A stretch of DNA of 64,000 nt, from assembly GCA_037481655.1 (NCBI GenBank), contig JBBFLF010000009.1:1-64000 (forward strand), given 5' to 3'. Positions 12,679 to 51,171 of this stretch are shown here, in pieces. Made by a program: the position numbers and the translations under genes. The notes under the pieces are model-generated. The model saw nothing but the letters and a program-made list of their open reading frames with translations. It ran no database searches and was not told the origin of the DNA. This DNA is from Desulfobaccales bacterium (GTDB lineage: Bacteria; Desulfobacterota; Desulfobaccia; Desulfobaccales; 0-14-0-80-60-11). How positions within the stretch are numbered: position 1 is the first letter of the stretch; each line of letters begins with the position of its first letter.

Positions 12679-12707
12679 TTGACAATCCCTCAAAATGAGG
12701 CTAAGCT
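12679..12707 (+). promoter_or_regulatory. Probable internal promoter in the dcw cluster
   Basis: TTGACA (12679-12684), a 17-bp spacer and TAAGCT (12702-12707) lie after ftsW. The surrounding sequence resembles the mraZ promoter at 1901 (shared CCTTGACAAT, a run of A residues and GGCT). It would serve the small ORF at 12910 and possibly murG onward. No TGGGN repeats follow it. Confidence 0.5.
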
Positions 12708-12909
12708 GGCATCATCTCAGGTTACCCCTGATAAAGAATTAAGGTTTTTTCTTAGGGAAAGTGGCCGGCTGCATTTTTTCTCCGGGGAGCCTGACTGCCG
12801 CCCGGGCGGGGGCAGACGCCTTCTTGGCGGACATGACAGCCCTGAGCCTCACAGACCAGGGGGAGGAGAGGTGACGAGGCGGCGGCCAGGGTCCCAGGAG
12901 GGGGGGGAC

Positions 12910-13170
12910 ATGGACGTCCGGCGGGTGCCGGCCCAGGAAGCGGCAGCCCGGCGTTGGTTCGATTTCCTGGCGGCGGAGTGCACCCGCCGGGACGGCCTGC
13001 TGTGTTTCTACGACCAGGAAAAATCCTCCCGGGTGTTGAGCTCTTGTCAGGCTCTGGCCCGGCATCTGGAGGGCCAGGTGGCCACATCTGACTCTCCCGC
13101 TTCTGGGATGGGTCGGGAGGACGAACCCTGCCCCTTCTCCCTGCCCGCCGTGCCCAGGGGACCGGGCTGA
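12910..13170 (+). CDS. Small hypothetical protein (86 aa) between ftsW and murG
   Basis: An 86-aa reading frame that I do not recognise. Support for it being a gene is an AGGAG ribosome site (12896-12900) before the ATG and an upstream promoter-like sequence. An in-frame GTG at 12871, also preceded by GGAGGAGAG, would give 99 aa. The first half (WFDFLAAECTRRDGLLCFYDQEK) looks like a folded helical segment with two cysteines. The last 25 residues are low-complexity and may not be functional. No signal peptide or membrane helix is seen. The segment 13171-13444 before murG contains nothing else I can support. It could also be a chance ORF in high-G+C DNA. Confidence 0.4.
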   Translation: MDVRRVPAQEAAARRWFDFLAAECTRRDGLLCFYDQEKSSRVLSSCQALARHLEGQVATSDSPASGMGREDEPCPFSLPAVPRGPG

Positions 13171-13444: not shown

Positions 13445-14527
13445 GTGTGTCCCGTATCTGAGCTGCATGTGGTGATCGTGGCCGGCGGCACCGGCGGCCA
13501 CCTCTTTCCGGGTATTGCCGTGGCCCGGGAATGGCAGCGCCGCGGGGTCAGGGTCACCTTCCTCACCACCCCCAAGCCGGTGACCGGGGAGATCCTGGCC
13601 CGTTATGGCCTCACCTGGGAGCCGGTGGCCAGCCGGGCCCTGGTGGGGATGGGCTGGGGGGCGCGGCTGCGCACTCTTTTTTCCCTGCCCGGCAACGTCT
13701 TGGCCGCCCGGCGGCGTCTGAAAGAACTCGCCCCGCACCTGGTGCTGGGCATGGGGGGCTATGCTGCCGCGCCCGTGGGGCTGGCCGCCTGGAGTCTCGG
13801 GATCCCCTTGGCCCTGCACGAGCAGAACGCCATTCCCGGCCTCACCAACCGCCGCCTGGCCCGTCTGGCCCGGCGGATCTTCCTCTCCTTTCCCGACGCC
13901 CGGGACCTGCCGGCGGAGAAGTGCCGCTGGACCGGCAATCCCATCCGGGAGGAGTTTTTTGAACCACCGCCCCCCCGGCCGGAGAGACCCTTCACCGTGC
14001 TCATCATGGGGGGGAGCCAGGGCGCCCGCCACCTCAACCAGCAGGTGGTGGCCGCCCTGCCGCGTTTGGCGGCGCGGCGGGAGGAGTTGCGCTTCCTGCA
14101 CCTCACCGGGGAGGCGGACTACGAGGAGGTGGCAGCGGGCTATCGGCAGGCGGGCTTTGAGGCGGAGGTGGCCCCCTTCTCCCCGGAGGTGGCCGCCCTC
14201 ATGGGCCGGGCGCATCTGGTGGTCTGCCGCTCCGGGGCCTCCACCCTGGCGGAGCTCATGGCCCGGGGCCGGGCGGCGGTGCTCATCCCCTACCCTTTCG
14301 CCGCCGGCAACCACCAGGAGGCCAACGCCCGCTACCTGGAGGCCCACGGCGCCGCCGAGGTCGTCTTGAATAAAGATTTTACCGCCGCGGTCTTTGCTGA
14401 TAAGATAGGGCAGTTTTTGGCAAAACCCGAGGCTTTGGCGGCCATGGAGGCGGCGGCCCGCTCCCTGGCCAAGCCCGCGGCCGCCCAGGAGATCGTAGCC
14501 GGCTGCCTGGAAATGCTGGACTCTTGA
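13445..14527 (+). CDS. murG: Lipid II synthase MurG (GlcNAc transferase)
   Basis: A 360-aa GT28 glycosyltransferase that adds GlcNAc to lipid I on the cytoplasmic membrane face. The N-terminal VVIVAGGTGGHLFPGIA motif is at about residues 9-25, GMGGYAAAPVGLAA is in the N-domain, LHEQNAIPGLTNR is intact, and the C-terminal UDP-GlcNAc site includes MGGSQGARHLNQ, CRSGASTLAEL and PYPFAAGNHQEANA. Translation starts at GTG 13445 with GGGAGG 5 nt upstream. In related clusters murC follows directly; here an approximately 1.9-kb insert separates them. Confidence 0.95.
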   Translation: MCPVSELHVVIVAGGTGGHLFPGIAVAREWQRRGVRVTFLTTPKPVTGEILARYGLTWEPVASRALVGMGWGARLRTLFSLPGNVLAARRRLKELAPHLVLGMGGYAAAPVGLAAWSLGIPLALHEQNAIPGLTNRRLARLARRIFLSFPDARDLPAEKCRWTGNPIREEFFEPPPPRPERPFTVLIMGGSQGARHLNQQVVAALPRLAARREELRFLHLTGEADYEEVAAGYRQAGFEAEVAPFSPEVAALMGRAHLVVCRSGASTLAELMARGRAAVLIPYPFAAGNHQEANARYLEAHGAAEVVLNKDFTAAVFADKIGQFLAKPEALAAMEAAARSLAKPAAAQEIVAGCLEMLDS

Positions 14528-14653
14528 GTCCACATGAAATGGTAGAGCGAAGATATTTTCTGGAATAAATATGGCCGCTATGTAGAACAGTTTGCGTGAA
14601 CATCCGTTTCTTCCAATGGCTTCGGGAGATATCCGAACTGGAGATCGGACATT

Positions 14654-15075
14654 CCCTCCCCCTTGATGGGGGAGGGCAAGGGTGGGGGTGAGCAATCACG
14701 AAACACCCTTTCAAAAACATTGCCAGGGTCTTGCGGAAATCTTCTACTCTGGCCGAGAGTCTTTTGTGGCGGCGTCTCCGGGGGAGGCAGTTGGCCGGCC
14801 GGAAATTCCGGAGACAGCAACCCTTGGGACCTTATGTGGTTGATTTCGTCTGCTTTGAGAGGCGCCTGGTCATCGAGATAGATGGCGGCCAGCATGACCT
14901 GGACCGGGCCCAAGACGAAGAACGGGACGCGTGGCTAAGGGAAAACGGCTTCACCGTGCTCAGGTTTTGGAATACCGAGGTGATGCAGAACCTGGAGGGA
15001 GTCCTGGAGTGCATTCTGGCCCAGGTGGCTGATCCCCCTCCCCCTAACCCCCTCCCGCCAGGGGAGGGGGGATGA
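14654..15075 (+). mobile_element. DUF559 endonuclease cassette bounded by inverted G/C-rich palindromes
   Basis: The DUF559 reading frame is bracketed by two related G/C-homopolymer repeats in opposite orientation. The left copy (14654-14692) reads CCCTCCCCC, TTGAT, GGGGGAGGG and then a G-rich tail. The right copy (15034-15075) has a C-rich tail and then CCCTCCC, GCCA, GGGGAGGG. Each is a hairpin on the outer side with its single-stranded tail facing the gene. No transposase is present, so calling it a mobile cassette is inference from symmetry and from its position inside an otherwise compact operon. Confidence 0.5.
14731..15075 (+). CDS. DUF559 (Vsr-like PD-(D/E)XK) endonuclease-domain protein
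   Basis: About 114 aa with the DUF559 pattern throughout: TLAESLLWRRLRGRQLAGRKFRRQ, cited as LLWRRLRGRQLAGRKF, then PLGPYVVDFVCFERRLVIEIDGGQH (catalytic D, E-x-D and H positions) and LRENGFTVLRFWNTEV. The family belongs to the restriction-endonuclease-like fold and is related to Vsr repair nucleases; its biological role is poorly known. No ATG exists between the in-frame stop at 14689 and the motif start, so TTG 14731 or a nearby rare codon must be used; this weakens expression evidence. The last 14 residues (PPPPNPLPPGEGG) are read from the right palindrome. Confidence 0.7.
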   Translation: MRKSSTLAESLLWRRLRGRQLAGRKFRRQQPLGPYVVDFVCFERRLVIEIDGGQHDLDRAQDEERDAWLRENGFTVLRFWNTEVMQNLEGVLECILAQVADPPPPNPLPPGEGG

Positions 15076-15180
15076 GCGCTGACGTTACGTAAAGCAGGCC
15101 ATTTATCCCGAGGATTGGGGTGCAGGCATCTCTTTTCGGCATGAGGATAATTTCGGAGAATAGGAAGAAATAAGAAATGA

Positions 15181-15390
15181 TGCGCACTGCGCACCCTAAC
15201 TTTCTCATATCAATGGAGAAAAGGCTCGATAACCGTAGCTGGGAAATGGGCTATTTTTGATGAAGGTCGAATTAAGGTAGAAATTAATATAATAGGAAGT
15301 AATGTTGTCTTTATGGGTTCGATTCGAAATAACATTTTAACATTAGCAGGGCAAGGTATGAGTATTAGTTATAATAAAATCAAAAAATAA
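15181..15390 (+). pseudogene. AT-rich C-terminal gene remnant
   Basis: An open frame of 69 codons ending TAA at 15388 runs through DNA far more AT-rich than its surroundings. It has no start codon for most of its length (the first ATG is late). Its product ends with the plausible protein segment WAIFDEGRIKVEINIIGSNV, then VFMGSIRNNILTLAGQG and a lysine-rich tail. I do not recognise the family. Base composition and the lack of a 5' end suggest the tail of a horizontally acquired gene. Confidence 0.35.
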
Positions 15391-15430
15391 ATTGTCAACA
15401 CCTAATTCATAACCGTAAAGTGCGCACTGC
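15181..15430. repeat. 10-bp direct repeat flanking the AT-rich remnant
   Basis: TGCGCACTGC occurs at 15181-15190 and again at 15421-15430, bounding the AT-rich remnant. The left copy continues as a TGCGCA-C-TGCGCA double palindrome. The spacing of 240 bp could be a target-site duplication or recombination scar. No transposase remains. Confidence 0.45.
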
Positions 15431-15448
15431 TCATCAAATTTTTAAACC

Positions 15449-15688
15449 ATGGCCAACACTACCAGCTACCACTTCATCGGCATCGGCGGCATCGGCATGA
15501 GCGGCTTGGCGGAGCTGTTGGTGCGCCAGAGCCACCCGGTGACCGGCTCCGATGTGGCCCAAAACGACATCACCCGGCGCCTGGAGGCCCTGGGGGTGCG
15601 GGTTTACCTGGGCCATGCCCCGGAGCATCTGGGCGAGTTCCAGGTGGTGGTGCACACCAGCGCGGTGAAGGACGACAACCCGCATTAG
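15449..15688 (+). pseudogene. Truncated duplicate of the murC 5' end
   Basis: A 79-codon frame almost identical to the N-terminus of the intact murC at 16480. Codons 7-77 differ at 10 of 213 nucleotides by direct alignment, four of the changed codons being non-synonymous (Ser/Gly, Gln/Arg, Phe/Ala, Asp/Glu). It carries the UDP-binding GIGGIGMSGLAELLV motif but stops after DDNPH, well before the ATP P-loop, so it cannot be a functional ligase. The copy ends abruptly where AT-rich DNA begins. No ribosome site precedes its ATG. It marks the left edge of the insertion that separates murG from murC. Confidence 0.9.
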
Positions 15689-15752
15689 ACAGTTACAACA
15701 AAATGGAATTCAAGTAAACAATCACATTTTTATTTACTATAGAGAAATCATA

Positions 15753-16001
15753 ATGGAAATAAGGCATTATCGCTTCCCGCGCATTACCCTGAACCCTGAG
15801 AAGTGCTTTGGCAAGCCATGTATTCGCGGGTTGAGAATGCCGGTATCCTCCATCATCAGTTATTTGGCCGCGGGCATGACTGTGGATGACATTCTGAAAG
15901 AGTGGCCCGAATTGGAGCGGGAGGATATTTTAGAGGCCCTGGGATACGCCGCCTGGGCCATGGAGGAAAGGGTGGTGCCTTTGCAGGAGGCCACCGGCTG
16001 A
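15753..16001 (+). CDS. DUF433 protein, probable VapB-like antitoxin
   Basis: An 82-aa DUF433 protein. The core [20 protein letters not shown] is the family signature (N-P-x-x-C-x-G-K-P-C-I-R-G), followed by a helix-turn-helix region [24 protein letters not shown], cited from [16 protein letters not shown]. In many genomes DUF433 genes directly precede a DUF5615 PIN-like gene and are regarded as antitoxin/toxin pairs; here the next gene begins on the base after its stop codon. A GAGA ribosome site precedes the ATG. The flanking DNA is AT-rich, suggesting transfer. Confidence 0.85.
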
Positions 16002-16373
16002 ATGAGGTTCCTCCTGAATATGAACCTGCCCCGGGCTTTGATGACGCAGCTCGCCGCTATGGGACATCAGGCCCGCCACGTGGGGGACATCGGTTTAGCT
16101 CGGGCCACGGACGCAGAAATCATAGCGGAGGCCCAAAAAACCCGGGAAACCATCTTGACTCACGACCTGGATTATGGCCATCTGCTGGCCTTTTCTGGGG
16201 TTATCTCACCGTCGGTGGTCATTTTTCGACTCAGAAGAATTGATTCGGAAATTCTGTTTAAAAGACTTATGGAGGCATGGGCAGAGATAGAGCTCCCCCT
16301 TTCAGAGGGTGCTATCATTATTTTGGAGGATACAGTCTTGCGTGTGCGCCCATTGCCTATAAAAGAAATATAA
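16002..16373 (+). CDS. DUF5615 PIN-like protein, probable toxin
   Basis: A 123-aa DUF5615 (Mut7-C/PIN-like) protein. The acidic positions expected of this fold are partly changed: the N-terminus reads MRFLLNMNLPRALMTQLAAM where relatives usually have LLDENLP, so the first Asp is Asn here. The DAEIIAEAQ and ILTHDLDYGHLLAF motifs with their Asp residues are present. It would be a predicted ribonuclease toxin partnered by the upstream DUF433 protein. The Asp-to-Asn change could mean reduced or lost nuclease activity. The gene starts immediately after the DUF433 stop. Confidence 0.8.
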   Translation: MRFLLNMNLPRALMTQLAAMGHQARHVGDIGLARATDAEIIAEAQKTRETILTHDLDYGHLLAFSGVISPSVVIFRLRRIDSEILFKRLMEAWAEIELPLSEGAIIILEDTVLRVRPLPIKEI

Positions 16374-16456
16374 GAAATAACACACTGAAAATATTTACAA
16401 CAAAATATAGATTGGTCGAAGATAAAATAGGAAAAACAATTCTCGGTGAAACTATA

Positions 16457-16468
16457 TATCACGTGATA
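16457..16468. promoter_or_regulatory. 12-bp perfect palindrome upstream of murC
   Basis: TATCACGTGATA lies 11 bp before the murC ATG in an AT-rich leader that lacks a ribosome-binding site. The position suggests an operator over a promoter or start region. The binding factor is unknown. Confidence 0.4.
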
Positions 16469-16479
16469 ATATCATTACC

Positions 16480-17916
16480 ATGACCACTAGCACCACCTAC
16501 CACTTCATCGGCATCGGCGGCATCGGCATGAGCGGCCTGGCGGAGCTGTTGGTGCGTCAGGGCCACCCGGTGACCGGCTCCGATGTGGCCAGAAACGACA
16601 TCACCCGGCGCCTGGAGGCCCTGGGGGTGCGGGTTTACCTGGGACATGCCCCGGAGCATCTGGGGGAGGCCCAGGTGGTGGTGCACACCAGCGCGGTGAA
16701 GGAGGACAACCCCGAGCTGGCCGCGGCCCGGAAGAGAGGCCTGACGGTGCTCCGCCGGGGCGAGATGCAGGCCCGGCTGATGGCCCCCCACCGCCAGATC
16801 GCGGTCACCGGGGCTCACGGCAAGACCTCCACCACCGCCATGACCGCGGCGGTGCTCCGGGCTGGCGGGCTGGACCCCACGGTGCTCGTGGGCGCGGTGT
16901 GGGACAGCCTGGGGAGCAATGCGGTCCTGGGCGCGGGCGAGTGGTTTGTGGCCGAAGCCGATGAAAGTGACGGCTCTTTCACCTATCTCACCCCCGAGAT
17001 CAGCATCATCACCAACCTGGACCGGGAACACCTGGATTTCTACCGGGACCTGGAGCACGTCAAGGAGGTCTTTGCCGGGTATCTGGCCCACCTGCCTCCG
17101 GGCGCCCTGGTGGTGGCCTGGGAGGGCGATCCGCATTTGCAGGGGCTCCTCCGGGACTTCCCCCACCGCCGCCTCACCTATGGCCTCACGCCCGGGGCAG
17201 ACCTTTGGGCCGACCGCCTGGCGACCCGGGGGTTGAGCCAGCGCTTCCGCCTCTGGCGGGGGGAGCGCCCCCTGGGGGAGGTGCGCCTGCCCCTGGCGGG
17301 GCCCCACTACGTCCTCAACGCCCTGGCTGCGGCGGGCGTGGCCCTGGAGCTGGGATTGCCCTTTGCCGCCGTGGCCCAAGGGCTGGCCGAGCTGGGGGGC
17401 CTCAAGCGCCGACTGGAGGTGAAGGGGGAAGCGGCAGGGGTCATGGTCATCGACGACTATGGCCACCACCCCACGGAGATCGAGGCCACCCTGCGGGCGG
17501 TGGCCCAGGCCTTCCCGGGGCGGCGCCTCGTCACCGCCTTCCAGCCGCACCGCTACAGCCGCACTGAGGCGCTCCTGCCGGATTTCTTCCCGGTCTTTGG
17601 GGCGGCGCATCTGGTCTTCATCACCGAGATTTATGCCGCCAGCGAAGCCCCCCGGCCCGGGGTTTCCGGCCGGCTCCTCTGGGAGGGCATCCGGGCCCAC
17701 GGCCATGGGGGGGCCTATTTCGCGCCAGATCAGGCCACCTTGGCCGCGGCCCTCCTGGAGCGTCTAAAACCCGGGGATGTGCTTCTCACTCTGGGAGCCG
17801 GGGATATCTGGCGCCTGGGGGAGGAGATTCTCCGGCGCCTGTCCGGGGGTAGAAAGCGCACCGCAGCCACACCGCCTAAGGGAGCGGAACCATGTCCTGG
17901 AGTCCGTATGGCATAA
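16480..17916 (+). CDS. murC: UDP-N-acetylmuramate:L-alanine ligase MurC
   Basis: A 478-aa Mur ligase, the first amino-acid-adding enzyme of peptidoglycan synthesis. The UDP-binding GIGGIGMSGLAEL is near residue 12. The ATP P-loop is VTGAHGKTSTT (about 109-119), with EADESDGSF, NLDREHLDFY, and the C-terminal DDYGHHPTEI and FQPHRYSRTEAL all intact. No Shine-Dalgarno sequence precedes the ATG: the leader is the AT-rich right edge of the inserted module, so its expression signals may come from the insert. The C-terminus overlaps ftsQ by 25 nt. murB, usually next, is absent. Confidence 0.95.
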   Translation: MTTSTTYHFIGIGGIGMSGLAELLVRQGHPVTGSDVARNDITRRLEALGVRVYLGHAPEHLGEAQVVVHTSAVKEDNPELAAARKRGLTVLRRGEMQARLMAPHRQIAVTGAHGKTSTTAMTAAVLRAGGLDPTVLVGAVWDSLGSNAVLGAGEWFVAEADESDGSFTYLTPEISIITNLDREHLDFYRDLEHVKEVFAGYLAHLPPGALVVAWEGDPHLQGLLRDFPHRRLTYGLTPGADLWADRLATRGLSQRFRLWRGERPLGEVRLPLAGPHYVLNALAAAGVALELGLPFAAVAQGLAELGGLKRRLEVKGEAAGVMVIDDYGHHPTEIEATLRAVAQAFPGRRLVTAFQPHRYSRTEALLPDFFPVFGAAHLVFITEIYAASEAPRPGVSGRLLWEGIRAHGHGGAYFAPDQATLAAALLERLKPGDVLLTLGAGDIWRLGEEILRRLSGGRKRTAATPPKGAEPCPGVRMA

Positions 17917-33165: not shown

Positions 33166-34107
33166 ATGCGGAGGGTGGCGCAATGCCGTTGGGCGGCATG
33201 TTTGCTGATGGGATTTCTTGGCGTGGCGGTGCTGGTCGGCCTTGGCGGCGCCGCCGGGTGGGCAGAGGCCGCAGCCAAGAAAACCCTGGTGGATCTGAAT
33301 ACCGCCTCGGAAAAAGAGCTGGAGGGATTGAAGGGGATCGGCCCGGCCAACGCCAAAAAGATCATCGCCGGGCGGCCCTACACCTCGGTGGAGGACCTGA
33401 AACGCATCGGCCTGCCTGAGAAGACCATCCAGGCGTTGAAATCCCAGGTCACCGTGGGCGGCGCCGCGGCGGCGACGGCACCGGCCGCCAAAGACAAGCC
33501 GGCCAAAGAGAAGCCGGTAACCAAAGAAAAGGCGGCGGTCAAGGCCAAAGAGGCTCCTCCTGCTGCCCCTGCCAAATTGGTGGACCTGAACACCGCCAGT
33601 CTCAAAGAGCTGGAGGCCCTGAAAGGGGTGGGGCCGGCCAACGCCAAGAAAATCATCGCCGGGCGCCCCTACAAGTCCATGGATGATTTGAAAAAGGCGG
33701 GCCTGTCTGCCAAAACCATCGAAGCGTTGAAATCCCAGGCCACCGTGAGCGCGCCCGCGGCCCCGGCCCCTAAGGCCGCGCCGCCGGCTGCCAAGCCGCC
33801 TACGCCTGCTCCGCCTCCGCCGCCGGTGGCCGCGCCCAGCCCGGCGCCAGCCCCCACGGCGCCCACCCCCGCGCCGGCTCCGGCCAAGGCGGACAAACCC
33901 GCCGCCCTCAAGCTGGCTCCGGGCCAGAAGGTGAACCTCAACACCGCCACCAAGGAGGAGCTGGAGGCCCTGCCGGAGATCGGCCCGGTGAAGGCCCAGG
34001 CCATTATCGACAACCGGCCCTATCAAAAGATTGAGGACGTCATGAAGGTCAAGGGCATCAAGGAGGAGACCTTCAAGGCCATCCAGGATTACATCACGGT
34101 GAAGTGA
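33166..34107 (+). CDS. Secreted protein with three ComEA-type helix-hairpin-helix domains
   Basis: A 313-aa protein with a signal peptide (about residues 1-36, AAGWAEA cleavage region) and three helix-hairpin-helix units at about 41-97, 138-195 and 256-313. Each begins VDLNTAS or VNLNTAT and contains [17 protein letters not shown] or a close variant. The second and third are separated by a long Ala/Pro-rich linker. ComEA-like units bind DNA non-specifically and in competent bacteria act in DNA uptake. GGGAGGAG precedes ATG 33166. No competence genes lie nearby; the multi-domain layout suggests a periplasmic or surface DNA-binding protein. Confidence 0.85.
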
Positions 34108-46359: not shown

Positions 46360-47778
46360 ATGGGCAACCGGACCGCCATTCTGCTGGTGGAGGATGACCC
46401 CAGCCAACGGGAGCTCCTGGCCGGGATTCTCCGGCAGGAGGGCTTTGAGGTGGAGGCGGTGGCCGACGGCGAGACCGGCTTGGCCCGCCTCCAGGAGGGC
46501 CCCTTCGACCTGGTGCTCACCGACCTCATCCTCCCGGGGCTGGGGGGCATGGACCTGTTGTCCCATATTGTGCGCCACTGGCCGGAAACCAAATGCATCA
46601 TCCTCACCGGCTTTGCCACGGTGAAGAATTCCGTCACGGCCATGCGCCTGGGGGCCTATGACTACCTGCAGAAACCGGTGGACCGCCAGGAATTGAGCCT
46701 GGTGGTGCGCCGGGCCCTGGAGCACCGGCGCCTGGAGCAGGAAAACCTGCGCCTCAAAAAGCAGCTCTGCCGGCGCTTCGGCTTTGCCAACATCATCGGC
46801 GCCAGTGAGCCCATGCAGCAGGTCTTCGAGCTGGTGCGCAAGGTGGCGGACAGCGACTCCACCGTGCTCATCCTGGGGGAATCCGGCACCGGCAAGGAGC
46901 TCATCGCCCGGGCCCTGCATTACAACAGCTCCCGGCGCCATGGGCCCCTCATCCCGGTGAATTGCGCCGCCATCCCGGAGGAGCTCCTGGAGAGCGAGCT
47001 CTTCGGGCATGAGCGGGGCGCCTTCACCCATGCGGTGCGCACCCGCATCGGCCGCTTCGAACAGGCCAACGGCGGCACCATCTTCCTGGATGAAATCGCC
47101 GACATGAGCCCCACCCTGCAGGTCAAGATCCTCAGGGTGCTACAGGACCGGGCCTTTGAGCGTATCGGCGGGGTCAAGACCATCCGGGTGGATATCCGGG
47201 TCATCGCCGCCACCAACCGGGACCTGGAGGCCCTGGTGAAGGCGGGCCAGTTCCGGGAGGACCTGTTCTATCGCCTCAACGTCATCCCCTTGAAGATTCC
47301 CCCCTTGCGGGAGCGGGCCTCGGACATTCCCTTGCTGGCGGCCCACTTCCTGCAGGAATTCTGCCGTCGGCGCAAGCAGCCCCTCAAACGCCTCAGCCCC
47401 GAAGCCCTGGAACTCCTCCTGAAATACCCCTGGCCGGGCAACGTCCGGGAGCTGGAAAACCTCATGGAGCGGCTGGTCATCCTGTGCGAGGGCGAGGTGA
47501 TCCGGCCCGGGGACCTGCCGGAGCGCTTTCAGCCCCTGCCGCCTGTCCATCTACCGGAACCGCCGCCGGATTTTCCGCCCCAGGGCATCTCCCTCACCGA
47601 GGCGGTGCAGGATTTTGAGCGCCGCCTCATCCTCAAGGCCCTGGAGAAGAGCCGCTGGGTGAAGAGCCGGGCCGCCCAGCTCCTGCATCTCAACCGCACC
47701 ACCCTCATTGAGAAGATGAAGAAGCAGAAGATCGTCACGCCTCCGGATCTCCCTCCCCTCCCCAAGCAGTTCACCTGA
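46360..47778 (+). CDS. NtrC-family sigma-54-dependent response regulator
   Basis: A 472-aa regulator with a receiver domain (acidic pocket ED12-D13, phosphoacceptor Asp55 in VLTDLILPG, conserved Lys in LQKPVD), an AAA+ central domain (Walker A GESGTGKE at 173-180, Walker B GGTIFLDEIAD) and a Fis-type DNA-binding helix-turn-helix at the end (WVKSRAAQLLHLNRTTLIEK). The sigma-54 contact loop, normally GAFTGA, reads GAFTHA at 220-225. Its cognate kinase is not adjacent. A possibly leaderless transcript. The terminator at 47814 ends the unit. It may activate the sigma-54 promoter at 48100. Confidence 0.95.
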   Translation: MGNRTAILLVEDDPSQRELLAGILRQEGFEVEAVADGETGLARLQEGPFDLVLTDLILPGLGGMDLLSHIVRHWPETKCIILTGFATVKNSVTAMRLGAYDYLQKPVDRQELSLVVRRALEHRRLEQENLRLKKQLCRRFGFANIIGASEPMQQVFELVRKVADSDSTVLILGESGTGKELIARALHYNSSRRHGPLIPVNCAAIPEELLESELFGHERGAFTHAVRTRIGRFEQANGGTIFLDEIADMSPTLQVKILRVLQDRAFERIGGVKTIRVDIRVIAATNRDLEALVKAGQFREDLFYRLNVIPLKIPPLRERASDIPLLAAHFLQEFCRRRKQPLKRLSPEALELLLKYPWPGNVRELENLMERLVILCEGEVIRPGDLPERFQPLPPVHLPEPPPDFPPQGISLTEAVQDFERRLILKALEKSRWVKSRAAQLLHLNRTTLIEKMKKQKIVTPPDLPPLPKQFT

Positions 47779-49797: not shown

Positions 49798-51171
49798 ATG
49801 ACCAAAAAGGCCCTGCTGATTATCGATCCTCAACCTCTGTGGCGGGATATCCAAGACCTCCTGCGACGCACCCACCAGGTGGAGACCCAGCAGGTCCCCA
49901 GCCTGGAGGCCGCCGGGGAGTTCCTCCGGGAGCCGGAGTTCCTGGCCATCTTCCTGGCCGAGCCCCTGGTGGGCTCCCTGGCACCGCTCAAAGGGGAGGT
50001 CCCCACGGTGCCGGTGTTTGTCTTCTCCCCCCGGCCCACGGTGGCCGGCGCGGTGGCGGCCATGCGGGAGGGGGCCCAGGATTATCTCGGTTTTCCCCCT
50101 CCTCCGGAGCGCCTGACGGAACTGCTCAGGCCCTATCTCTCCGCCCCGGCGGACAGTCCCGCCCCGGGACGTCCCCGCCAAGGCGAGCGCAGCATGGCCC
50201 GCCCCCTCATCACTCAGGACCCGGCCATGCTCCGTCTGGTGGAGATGGCCAAGGCCGTGGCGCCCACCCGGGCCACGGTGCTCATCCAGGGGGAGTCCGG
50301 CACCGGCAAGGAGGTCCTGGCCCGGTTGCTGCACCAGGAGAGCGACCGGGCCGCGGGGCCCTTTGTGGCGGTGAACTGCGCCGCCCTGCCCGAGGGCCTG
50401 TTGGAGAGCGAGCTCTTCGGCCATGAAAAGGGGGCCTTCACCGGCGCCATCATGCGCAAGCTGGGCAAATTCGAGCTGGCGCAGCACGGCACCCTGCTTC
50501 TGGATGAAATCAGCGAGATGCACCCCCACCTGCAGGCCAAGCTCTTAAGGGTGCTCCAGGAAAACGAGATCGACCGGGTGGGCGGTCGCACCCCCATCCC
50601 CGTGGATGTGCGGGTGGTGGCCACCACCAACCGAGACCTCACCGAGCTGATGCAGAAGGGGGAATTCCGGGAGGACCTCTACTACCGCCTGCAGGTCATC
50701 ACCTTCACCCTGCCGCCCCTCAGGGAGCGGCCCGGGGACATCCCCTTGCTGGCCCAATATTTCCTGGAGCGCTACTCCCAGCTCTTCGGCAAGGGGCCCC
50801 TCAGCTTCACCACCACCGCCCTGAGGGCCCTGGAGGCCGCCGCCTGGCCCGGCAACGTTCGGCAGCTGGAAAACGCCGTGGCCCGGGGGGTGCTTCTGGC
50901 CACCACCCGCTTTGTCCACCCCAAGGACATCTTCGGGGAGACCCCCCCCGCCGTCCCCGCGCCTGAGGCCCGCGCCCTCACCCCGGCCAAGCCCGTCACC
51001 TTGCGGGAGATGGAGCAGAGCCTGATCTTCCAGGCCTTAAAAGAGACTTCCGGCAACCGCACCCATGCCGCCAAGCTCTTGGGGATCAGCGTGCGCACCC
51101 TGAGGAACAAGCTGCACGAATACCGGCAGGAGCAGCAGCGGCCGCCGGTGTGCCGCTCCCAGGTGGCGTGA
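49798..51171 (+). CDS. FleQ/FlrA-like sigma-54 flagellar regulator with degenerate receiver
   Basis: A 457-aa regulator. The N-terminal domain has receiver topology, but the phosphoacceptor region reads IFLAEPLVGSL with no Asp, so it is unlikely to be phosphorylated, as in FleQ or FlrA. The AAA+ domain has Walker A GESGTGKE (165-172), canonical GAFTGA (212-217) and GTLLLDEISE. A Fis-type helix-turn-helix follows (AAKLLGISVRTLRNKLHEY). It directly precedes the flgB promoter, consistent with a flagellar master regulator. AAGGATGAGG precedes ATG 49798. Confidence 0.9.
   Translation: MTKKALLIIDPQPLWRDIQDLLRRTHQVETQQVPSLEAAGEFLREPEFLAIFLAEPLVGSLAPLKGEVPTVPVFVFSPRPTVAGAVAAMREGAQDYLGFPPPPERLTELLRPYLSAPADSPAPGRPRQGERSMARPLITQDPAMLRLVEMAKAVAPTRATVLIQGESGTGKEVLARLLHQESDRAAGPFVAVNCAALPEGLLESELFGHEKGAFTGAIMRKLGKFELAQHGTLLLDEISEMHPHLQAKLLRVLQENEIDRVGGRTPIPVDVRVVATTNRDLTELMQKGEFREDLYYRLQVITFTLPPLRERPGDIPLLAQYFLERYSQLFGKGPLSFTTTALRALEAAAWPGNVRQLENAVARGVLLATTRFVHPKDIFGETPPAVPAPEARALTPAKPVTLREMEQSLIFQALKETSGNRTHAAKLLGISVRTLRNKLHEYRQEQQRPPVCRSQVA

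Follow-up and report, generated by a model that had tools for sequence, protein, structure and literature searches.

Homology-facilitated illegitimate recombination (HFIR), whose scars show homology on one side and a non-homologous joint on the other, has been described in natural transformation and also in conjugation, where its efficiency is low (PMC3240628); it has been invoked for small variable segments (PMC2884548). It has also been proposed for the displaced immunity genes of V. cholerae T6SS arrays, in which remnants of earlier genes persist after modules have been inserted one after another at the same locus (PMC5361080). A VapBC type made of a small DUF433 gene (COG2442) followed by a PIN-like gene was predicted in PMC2701414, and for one such pair, Synechocystis vapBC10, growth arrest by the toxin and neutralisation by the antitoxin have been shown (PMC3834315). 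Here, we compare with these systems a murG-murC junction found in 64,000 nucleotides of DNA (the window) from a Desulfobaccales bacterium (GCA_037481655.1, contig JBBFLF010000009.1, positions 1 to 64,000, forward strand).

As in HFIR scars, a truncated gene copy adjoins an intact one at this locus, although the murC case is known by its outcome only, in an uncultured lineage. The V. cholerae arrays contain 3' remnants and orphan immunity genes, whereas here the remnant is the 5' end of an essential gene with the intact copy downstream. The small DUF433 gene followed by a PIN-like gene recalls vapBC10, but this is a predicted pair, and the toxin of the window clade has Asn in place of the first conserved acidic residue. 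REP palindromes accompany Y1 transposase genes at the murG-murC junction of several relatives, as in the GTAG REP/RAYT systems (PMC3733652, PMC2817692), while the window genome has degenerate REP-like remnants only and no RAYT at the junction. Finally, a fragment on one side and an intact gene on the other are also what gene-restoring integrative elements leave. However, the murC locus lacks a recombinase, its cargo is two small genes, and the same pair in one relative (G021) comes without a restoring duplication; no integrase or transposase ORF was found between murG and murC, and the genome has no repeated copies elsewhere.

Layout of the murG-murC junction

The dcw cluster of the window reads murF, mraY, murD, ftsW, murG, the junction, murC, ftsQ, ftsA and ftsZ (from the ORF list, with the order confirmed by relatives). 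Between the murG stop (14527) and the murC start (16480) lies a gap of 1,952 bp that contains, from 5' to 3', a DUF559 gene, AT-rich DNA, a murC 5' fragment (c1), a DUF433/DUF5615 pair and an AT-rich leader, followed by the complete murC (c2). The features are as follows.

13445..14527, + strand: murG, left border of the junction (ORF list; orthologous to murG in all examined relatives)
14651..14691, no strand: left end of the DUF559 unit, a GC-rich repeat (junction-versus-junction blastn)
14731..15075, + strand: DUF559 gene (Vsr-like nuclease fold; Pfam PF04480, 2.2e-39), cargo of the putative junction version A
15179..15199, - strand: decayed GTAG-type REP-like palindrome (3 mismatches to GTAGGGTGCGCACNGCGCACC)
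15181..15433, no strand: AT-rich segment between 13-bp direct repeats of the REP core at 15181-15193 and 15421-15433 (repeat search; composition)
15446..15681, + strand: c1, murC 5' fragment, codons 1-77 (93% to 16477-16712; PF01225 only)
15693..15704, + strand: left 12-bp direct repeat TTACAACAAAAT (exact copy at 16395-16406)
15753..16001, + strand: DUF433 antitoxin-like gene, COG2442, VapB type (PF04255, 3.2e-25; PDB 2ga1, E = 0.0005)
16002..16373, + strand: DUF5615 PIN-like toxin gene, VapC type (PF18480, 6.2e-23; PIN_10, 4.9e-6)
16395..16406, + strand: right 12-bp direct repeat TTACAACAAAAT (exact copy at 15693-15704)
16440..16479, + strand: native murC leader, promoter-like region, kept by c2 (alignment to the corresponding leaders in G009 and G008)
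16480..17916, + strand: c2, intact murC (TIGR01082, 482.6 bits against a cut-off of 335.1; 89% amino acid identity to congeners)

A preliminary description, made from the sequence, had reported the two murC 5' ends with their 1,031-bp offset, the first of only 79 codons, and the DUF433/DUF5615 pair in AT-rich DNA between them. The ORFs, a repeat search and TIGR01082 agree with it on the former, and the Pfam matches agree on the latter, the DUF433 frame directly preceding that of DUF5615; the GC content falls to 31-34% at 15200-15399 and 16300-16499. Beyond that list, we found the DUF559 gene, two REP-like palindromes and the exact 12-bp direct repeat around the pair, for which 0.04 matches would be expected in the window (at most one mismatch). 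Neither an integrase nor a transposase gene was detected in 14528-16479 (ORF list, Pfam), where the ORFs are DUF559, the fragment and the pair. Apart from the murC copies, no part of the stretch 14528-16480 had a further copy in the genome. Elsewhere in the window, direct repeats occur at 46859-47460 and 50273-50874 (608 nt, 70%) and at 33287-33470 and 33578-33761 (184 nt, 77%). An ORF between ftsW and murG (12679-13170) has no Pfam match and shows partial similarity in the congeners and weak similarity in G006 and G005.

The homology between c1 and c2 starts 3 nt before the ATG and ends at about codons 77-78, extending over 236 nt. The c1 frame (15449-15688) runs into TAG at codon 80. Our recount gave the 10 differences in codons 7-77 that had been stated before, and 11 in codons 6-77, evenly spread over the codon positions (4, 3, 4), while in the fast-evolving tail (codons 2-6) 6 of the 15 nucleotides differ (counted by eye). 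c1 is probably non-functional. The 40 nt upstream of c1 and of c2 are unrelated (p = 1.0), no repeat being found upstream of the ATGs, which rules out a simple tandem duplication. In the tree, c1 and c2 are sisters (support 93/70) within the clade of the genus (99/99), and their 5% divergence is about half of the distance to the congeners. Both results bear out the earlier judgment that the second 5' end did not arise as an assembly echo or as a fresh tandem copy. Since c1 falls inside the genus clade, a donor of c1 from another genus was rejected.

The junction across the family

Our family set comprised 22 genomes, two of them congeners (G008 and G009), and the murG-murC junction could be read in 20 relatives (loci L034-L053); the family genomes found by name were assembled from metagenomes and carry the labels Desulfobacca acetoxidans, Syntrophobacterales or Deltaproteobacteria. 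Only three of the 20 junctions were nearly empty (156 bp in G008, 221 bp in G006 and 93 bp in G007), and the other 17 held 0.6-2.1 kb of varied cargo. Six relatives (G010, G011, G013, G014, G016 and G017) have a complete murG-DUF559-murC arrangement. Another six (G001, G002, G003, G004, G012 and G018) carry Y1 transposases, which we read as RAYT-like from their sequence and their REP neighbours; the G002 protein lies just under the cut-off (Pfam Y1_Tnp, 2.6e-4). Single genomes contributed an EVE-domain protein (G015), DUF488 (G019), an FkbM methyltransferase (G005) and a weak VRR-NUC-like match (G009). Across this family, insertions gather in the gap between murG and murC, a hotspot within the essential dcw cluster.

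The comparison of relatives' junctions and the tree of both 5' segments, proposed in the preliminary description, yielded junctions with and without the module, the former being G021, in which murG, the DUF433/DUF5615 pair and an intact murC follow each other with neither fragment nor murC duplication. Relatives that carry the fragment and lack the module, which had been named as the finding that would speak against the earlier reading, were sought among the 20 relatives and none was found. No second murC 5' end and no long copy of the murG 3' end occurs in any of them. The sequence that follows c1 codons 77-78 likewise had no match in any relative's junction. At the G021 junction (L038), the 3' end of murG (CTGCCGGGAACTGGTGGACAAAACGTAGG, about 29 bp) has, by eye, a diverged copy just downstream, across a REP-like palindrome, below the detection limit of our blastn check. 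The congeners have neither of the two arrangements, DUF559 or pair: G008 has a single murC copy 156 bp from murG, with border sequences unlike those of the window. An exact parental pair was present in none of the genomes.

The two murC starts are preceded by sequences of different affinity. The 40-nt leader of c2, intact between the pair and the gene, aligned with the murC leader of G009 (p = 0.001-0.004, by shuffles) and with that of G008 (p = 0.013); given that ten pairs were tested at three lengths, values near 0.01 are marginal and it is the G009 match that carries weight. The sequence upstream of c1 aligned with neither of these leaders. A REP-like palindrome ends about 16 bp before the c1 ATG, the same layout that precedes murC in G012, G016 and G018, which belong to other genera; with G012, the match extends over 41 bp in register (E = 5e-4). 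A promoter-like GTGAAA-18-TATCAT motif in the c2 leader is within chance expectation, and the spacer had no Rfam match to an RNA family or riboswitch.

When two mismatches or fewer are allowed, the REP consensus GTAGGGTGCGCACNGCGCACC is absent from the three genomes of the genus, whereas 18 of the 19 others in the family contain 2-240 copies each, and within the genus a stand-alone DUF559 gene is found in the window genome only. The cargo next to c1 is therefore foreign to the genus, although c1 itself is not. The stand-alone DUF559 genes at the junction look as if they were small mobile units. Inverted GC-rich borders of ca. 45 bp were noticed at the DUF559 genes of the window (14651-15076) and of the six relatives that have this arrangement.

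The DUF433/DUF5615 pair and gene ends beside toxin-antitoxin modules

The DUF5615 gene of the pair is the only one in the whole genome. Its predicted product, which had no match by sequence to a solved structure, retains Asp37, Asp55 and Asp57, and has Asn at the first conserved Asp (Asp6, present in 79 of 90 DUF5615 proteins). This Asn, found in 9 of the 90, is common to the window toxin and its two closest relatives, those of G021 and L178, so nuclease activity of the window toxin should not be assumed. The modules of the window and G021 are sisters (100/92), with amino acid identities of 0.87 and 0.68. Identity at 4-fold sites is only 0.44-0.50, compared with 0.65 for murC, which rules out a recent transfer of the module between the two lineages, and at such amino acid identities it makes constraint at the protein level visible. 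The 87% identity of the DUF433 protein is due to its slow evolution (82% in an unrelated family). The pair is best explained as ordinary VapBC-type cargo of a busy junction, a predicted toxin-antitoxin system.

We surveyed 101 DUF5615 loci of the phylum, 83 of them evaluable, for direct repeats of at least 25 bp that enclose the toxin gene. Such repeats were found at 15 of the 83 loci, more often than at offset positions of these loci (roughly 2-11%), and at 7 of 61 RelE/ParE loci of the same genomes, which served as a control. The control shows that the repeat signal is not specific to DUF5615 modules, and flanking duplications as a hallmark of DUF433/DUF5615 were thus ruled out. Duplicated gene 3' ends were seen at three DUF5615 loci (L241, 189 bp at 78%; L251, 202 bp at 96.5%; L236, 89 bp at 95.5%) and likewise at the RelE/ParE locus L256, one of the copies being sometimes degraded. 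Several of the repeat-enclosed cases are dispersed repeats or, at L238, an integron attC-like site, where a DUF433/DUF5615 pair lies between 73-bp repeats. At L206, 29 bp covering the ribosome-binding site and start of a DUF433/DUF5615 pair recur where the next gene begins, and the flanking genes look co-transcribed.

Duplicated gene ends beside small toxin-antitoxin modules recur, with no tie to the module type. A more general idea, to which we give very little credence, is that such modules (DUF433/DUF5615, RelE/ParE and others) share a recombinase-free way of settling beside genes, in which the end of the gene at the point of insertion is regularly duplicated. If this were true, the murC locus would be a 5'-end case and L241, L251 and L236 would be 3'-end cases, and even junctions inside essential operons would be usable.

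Origin of the second murC 5' end

On balance, we favour the explanation that the locus arose when HFIR placed two versions of the murG-murC junction one after the other. Such an event, the simplest that would bring two halves like these together, requires no replacement gene end supplied by an element. We infer the mechanism of recombination, its direction and the order of events as follows. Version A would comprise murG, DUF559, the REP-like/AT-rich segment, the REP-like palindrome and the start of murC, stopping abruptly at codon 77; version B, starting right after it, would comprise an AT-rich spacer, the DUF433/DUF5615 pair, the genus-type leader and the complete murC. DNA from one lineage would have entered another of the same genus, the two haplotypes being about 95% identical. 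On one side, homologous pairing would have taken place in murG or further to the left, or to the right in the body of murC; the opposite end would be a non-homologous joint between codon 77 of c1 and the spacer of version B. The fragment would have been left behind as a dead scar, and murC would have remained functional thanks to a complete, undamaged copy with its own leader.

Both versions have complete counterparts among the relatives, version A in the six DUF559-bearing junctions and version B in G021. The c1/c2 homology provides an anchor on one side, each copy lying in a murG-X-murC context known from relatives, and the abrupt end of the c1 homology leaves the other side with no extended homology. 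The 5% divergence, the sister position of the copies in one genus and the REP and DUF559 sequences foreign to that genus fit a contribution from two lineages and may also fit a decaying paralogue, and the divergent N-terminal tails hint at orthologues of separate lineages more than at fresh paralogues.

The splice could have had either polarity. With version A resident, murC would have been severed at codon 77 and the incoming DNA would have completed it; with version B resident, murC would never have been touched. We lean toward a resident version B because the genus-type leader is found in c2 only, with the caveat that a donor of the same genus would bring such a leader too. Of the earlier reading of a murC gene interrupted and restored, the interruption at codon 77 and completion by a relative's DNA survives as one of these polarities, and repair carried by an element is not supported. 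The pair may have been part of version B already, or it may have arrived later in the spacer between the 12-bp repeats. From the perfect repeat one would expect the pair to have been inserted separately and recently, and from the low 4-fold-site identity to the G021 module an old divergence; the two signals fit together awkwardly.

Against the haplotype splice, none of the genomes is an exact parent, a genus member with version A alone or version B alone, and a local duplication during cargo insertion would leave similar sequence. According to the duplication explanation, which we consider unlikely but worth keeping in mind, repair or template switching at the insertion of the DUF559/REP cargo copied the 77 codons of the resident murC upstream and the copy decayed, with a single allele involved. 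It would account for c1 and c2 being each other's closest relatives, for c1 starting so close to its ATG and for four of the five c1-specific changes being nonsynonymous. However, c2-specific changes are almost as numerous as c1-specific ones, the differences in the N-terminal tail exceed a neutral decay of 5%, and the spacing from REP to ATG before c1 is like that of relatives with a functional murC. It is improbable, and more so than the duplication, that the assembly merged two co-occurring strains, the first bearing junction A and the second junction B. The locus does resemble the sum of two junction types, and the family genomes recovered by name are metagenome assemblies, but the site is well within its contig (123.6 kb, free of N runs) and the estimated contamination is 0.15%. 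Moreover, the two murC copies are the only longer sequence shared here, so a k-mer assembler would have had no overlap at the joint. The exact joint sequence had no match in IMG/VR viral contigs, a weak test.

The preliminary description had instead proposed that a toxin-antitoxin element entered murC, brought a new 5' end for it and was protected by its link to an essential gene. The order of fragment, module and intact gene fits this proposal, and other modules with duplicated gene ends exist (L241, L251 and L236). Nevertheless, the segment encodes no recombinase, the sister module sits at the same junction of G021 with no duplication, the genus-type leader is on the intact copy and not on the fragment, and enclosing repeats are not clearly commoner at DUF5615 than at RelE/ParE loci, one of which (L256) has a duplicated gene end as well; we regard the proposal as highly improbable. 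Least credible of all is a function of c1 itself, for example as a translated N-terminal MurC domain or as a leader regulating either murC or the module. In its favour, no stop interrupts the 79 codons, which span part of the Mur_ligase N-terminal domain, but the ATP-binding and C-terminal domains are missing, the changes are indifferent to codon position, none of the relatives has the fragment and Rfam gave no match.

Most likely, then, the murC locus is an ordinary one-sided recombination scar rather than a break-and-repair element, and the layout of a fragment, a toxin-antitoxin pair and an intact gene does not by itself prove such an element. Imperfect recombination of two junction versions can give an essential gene a dead 5' copy at no apparent cost. 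Throughout this family, small nucleases, transposases and toxin-antitoxin pairs settle in the gap between two essential genes of the division and cell-wall cluster.
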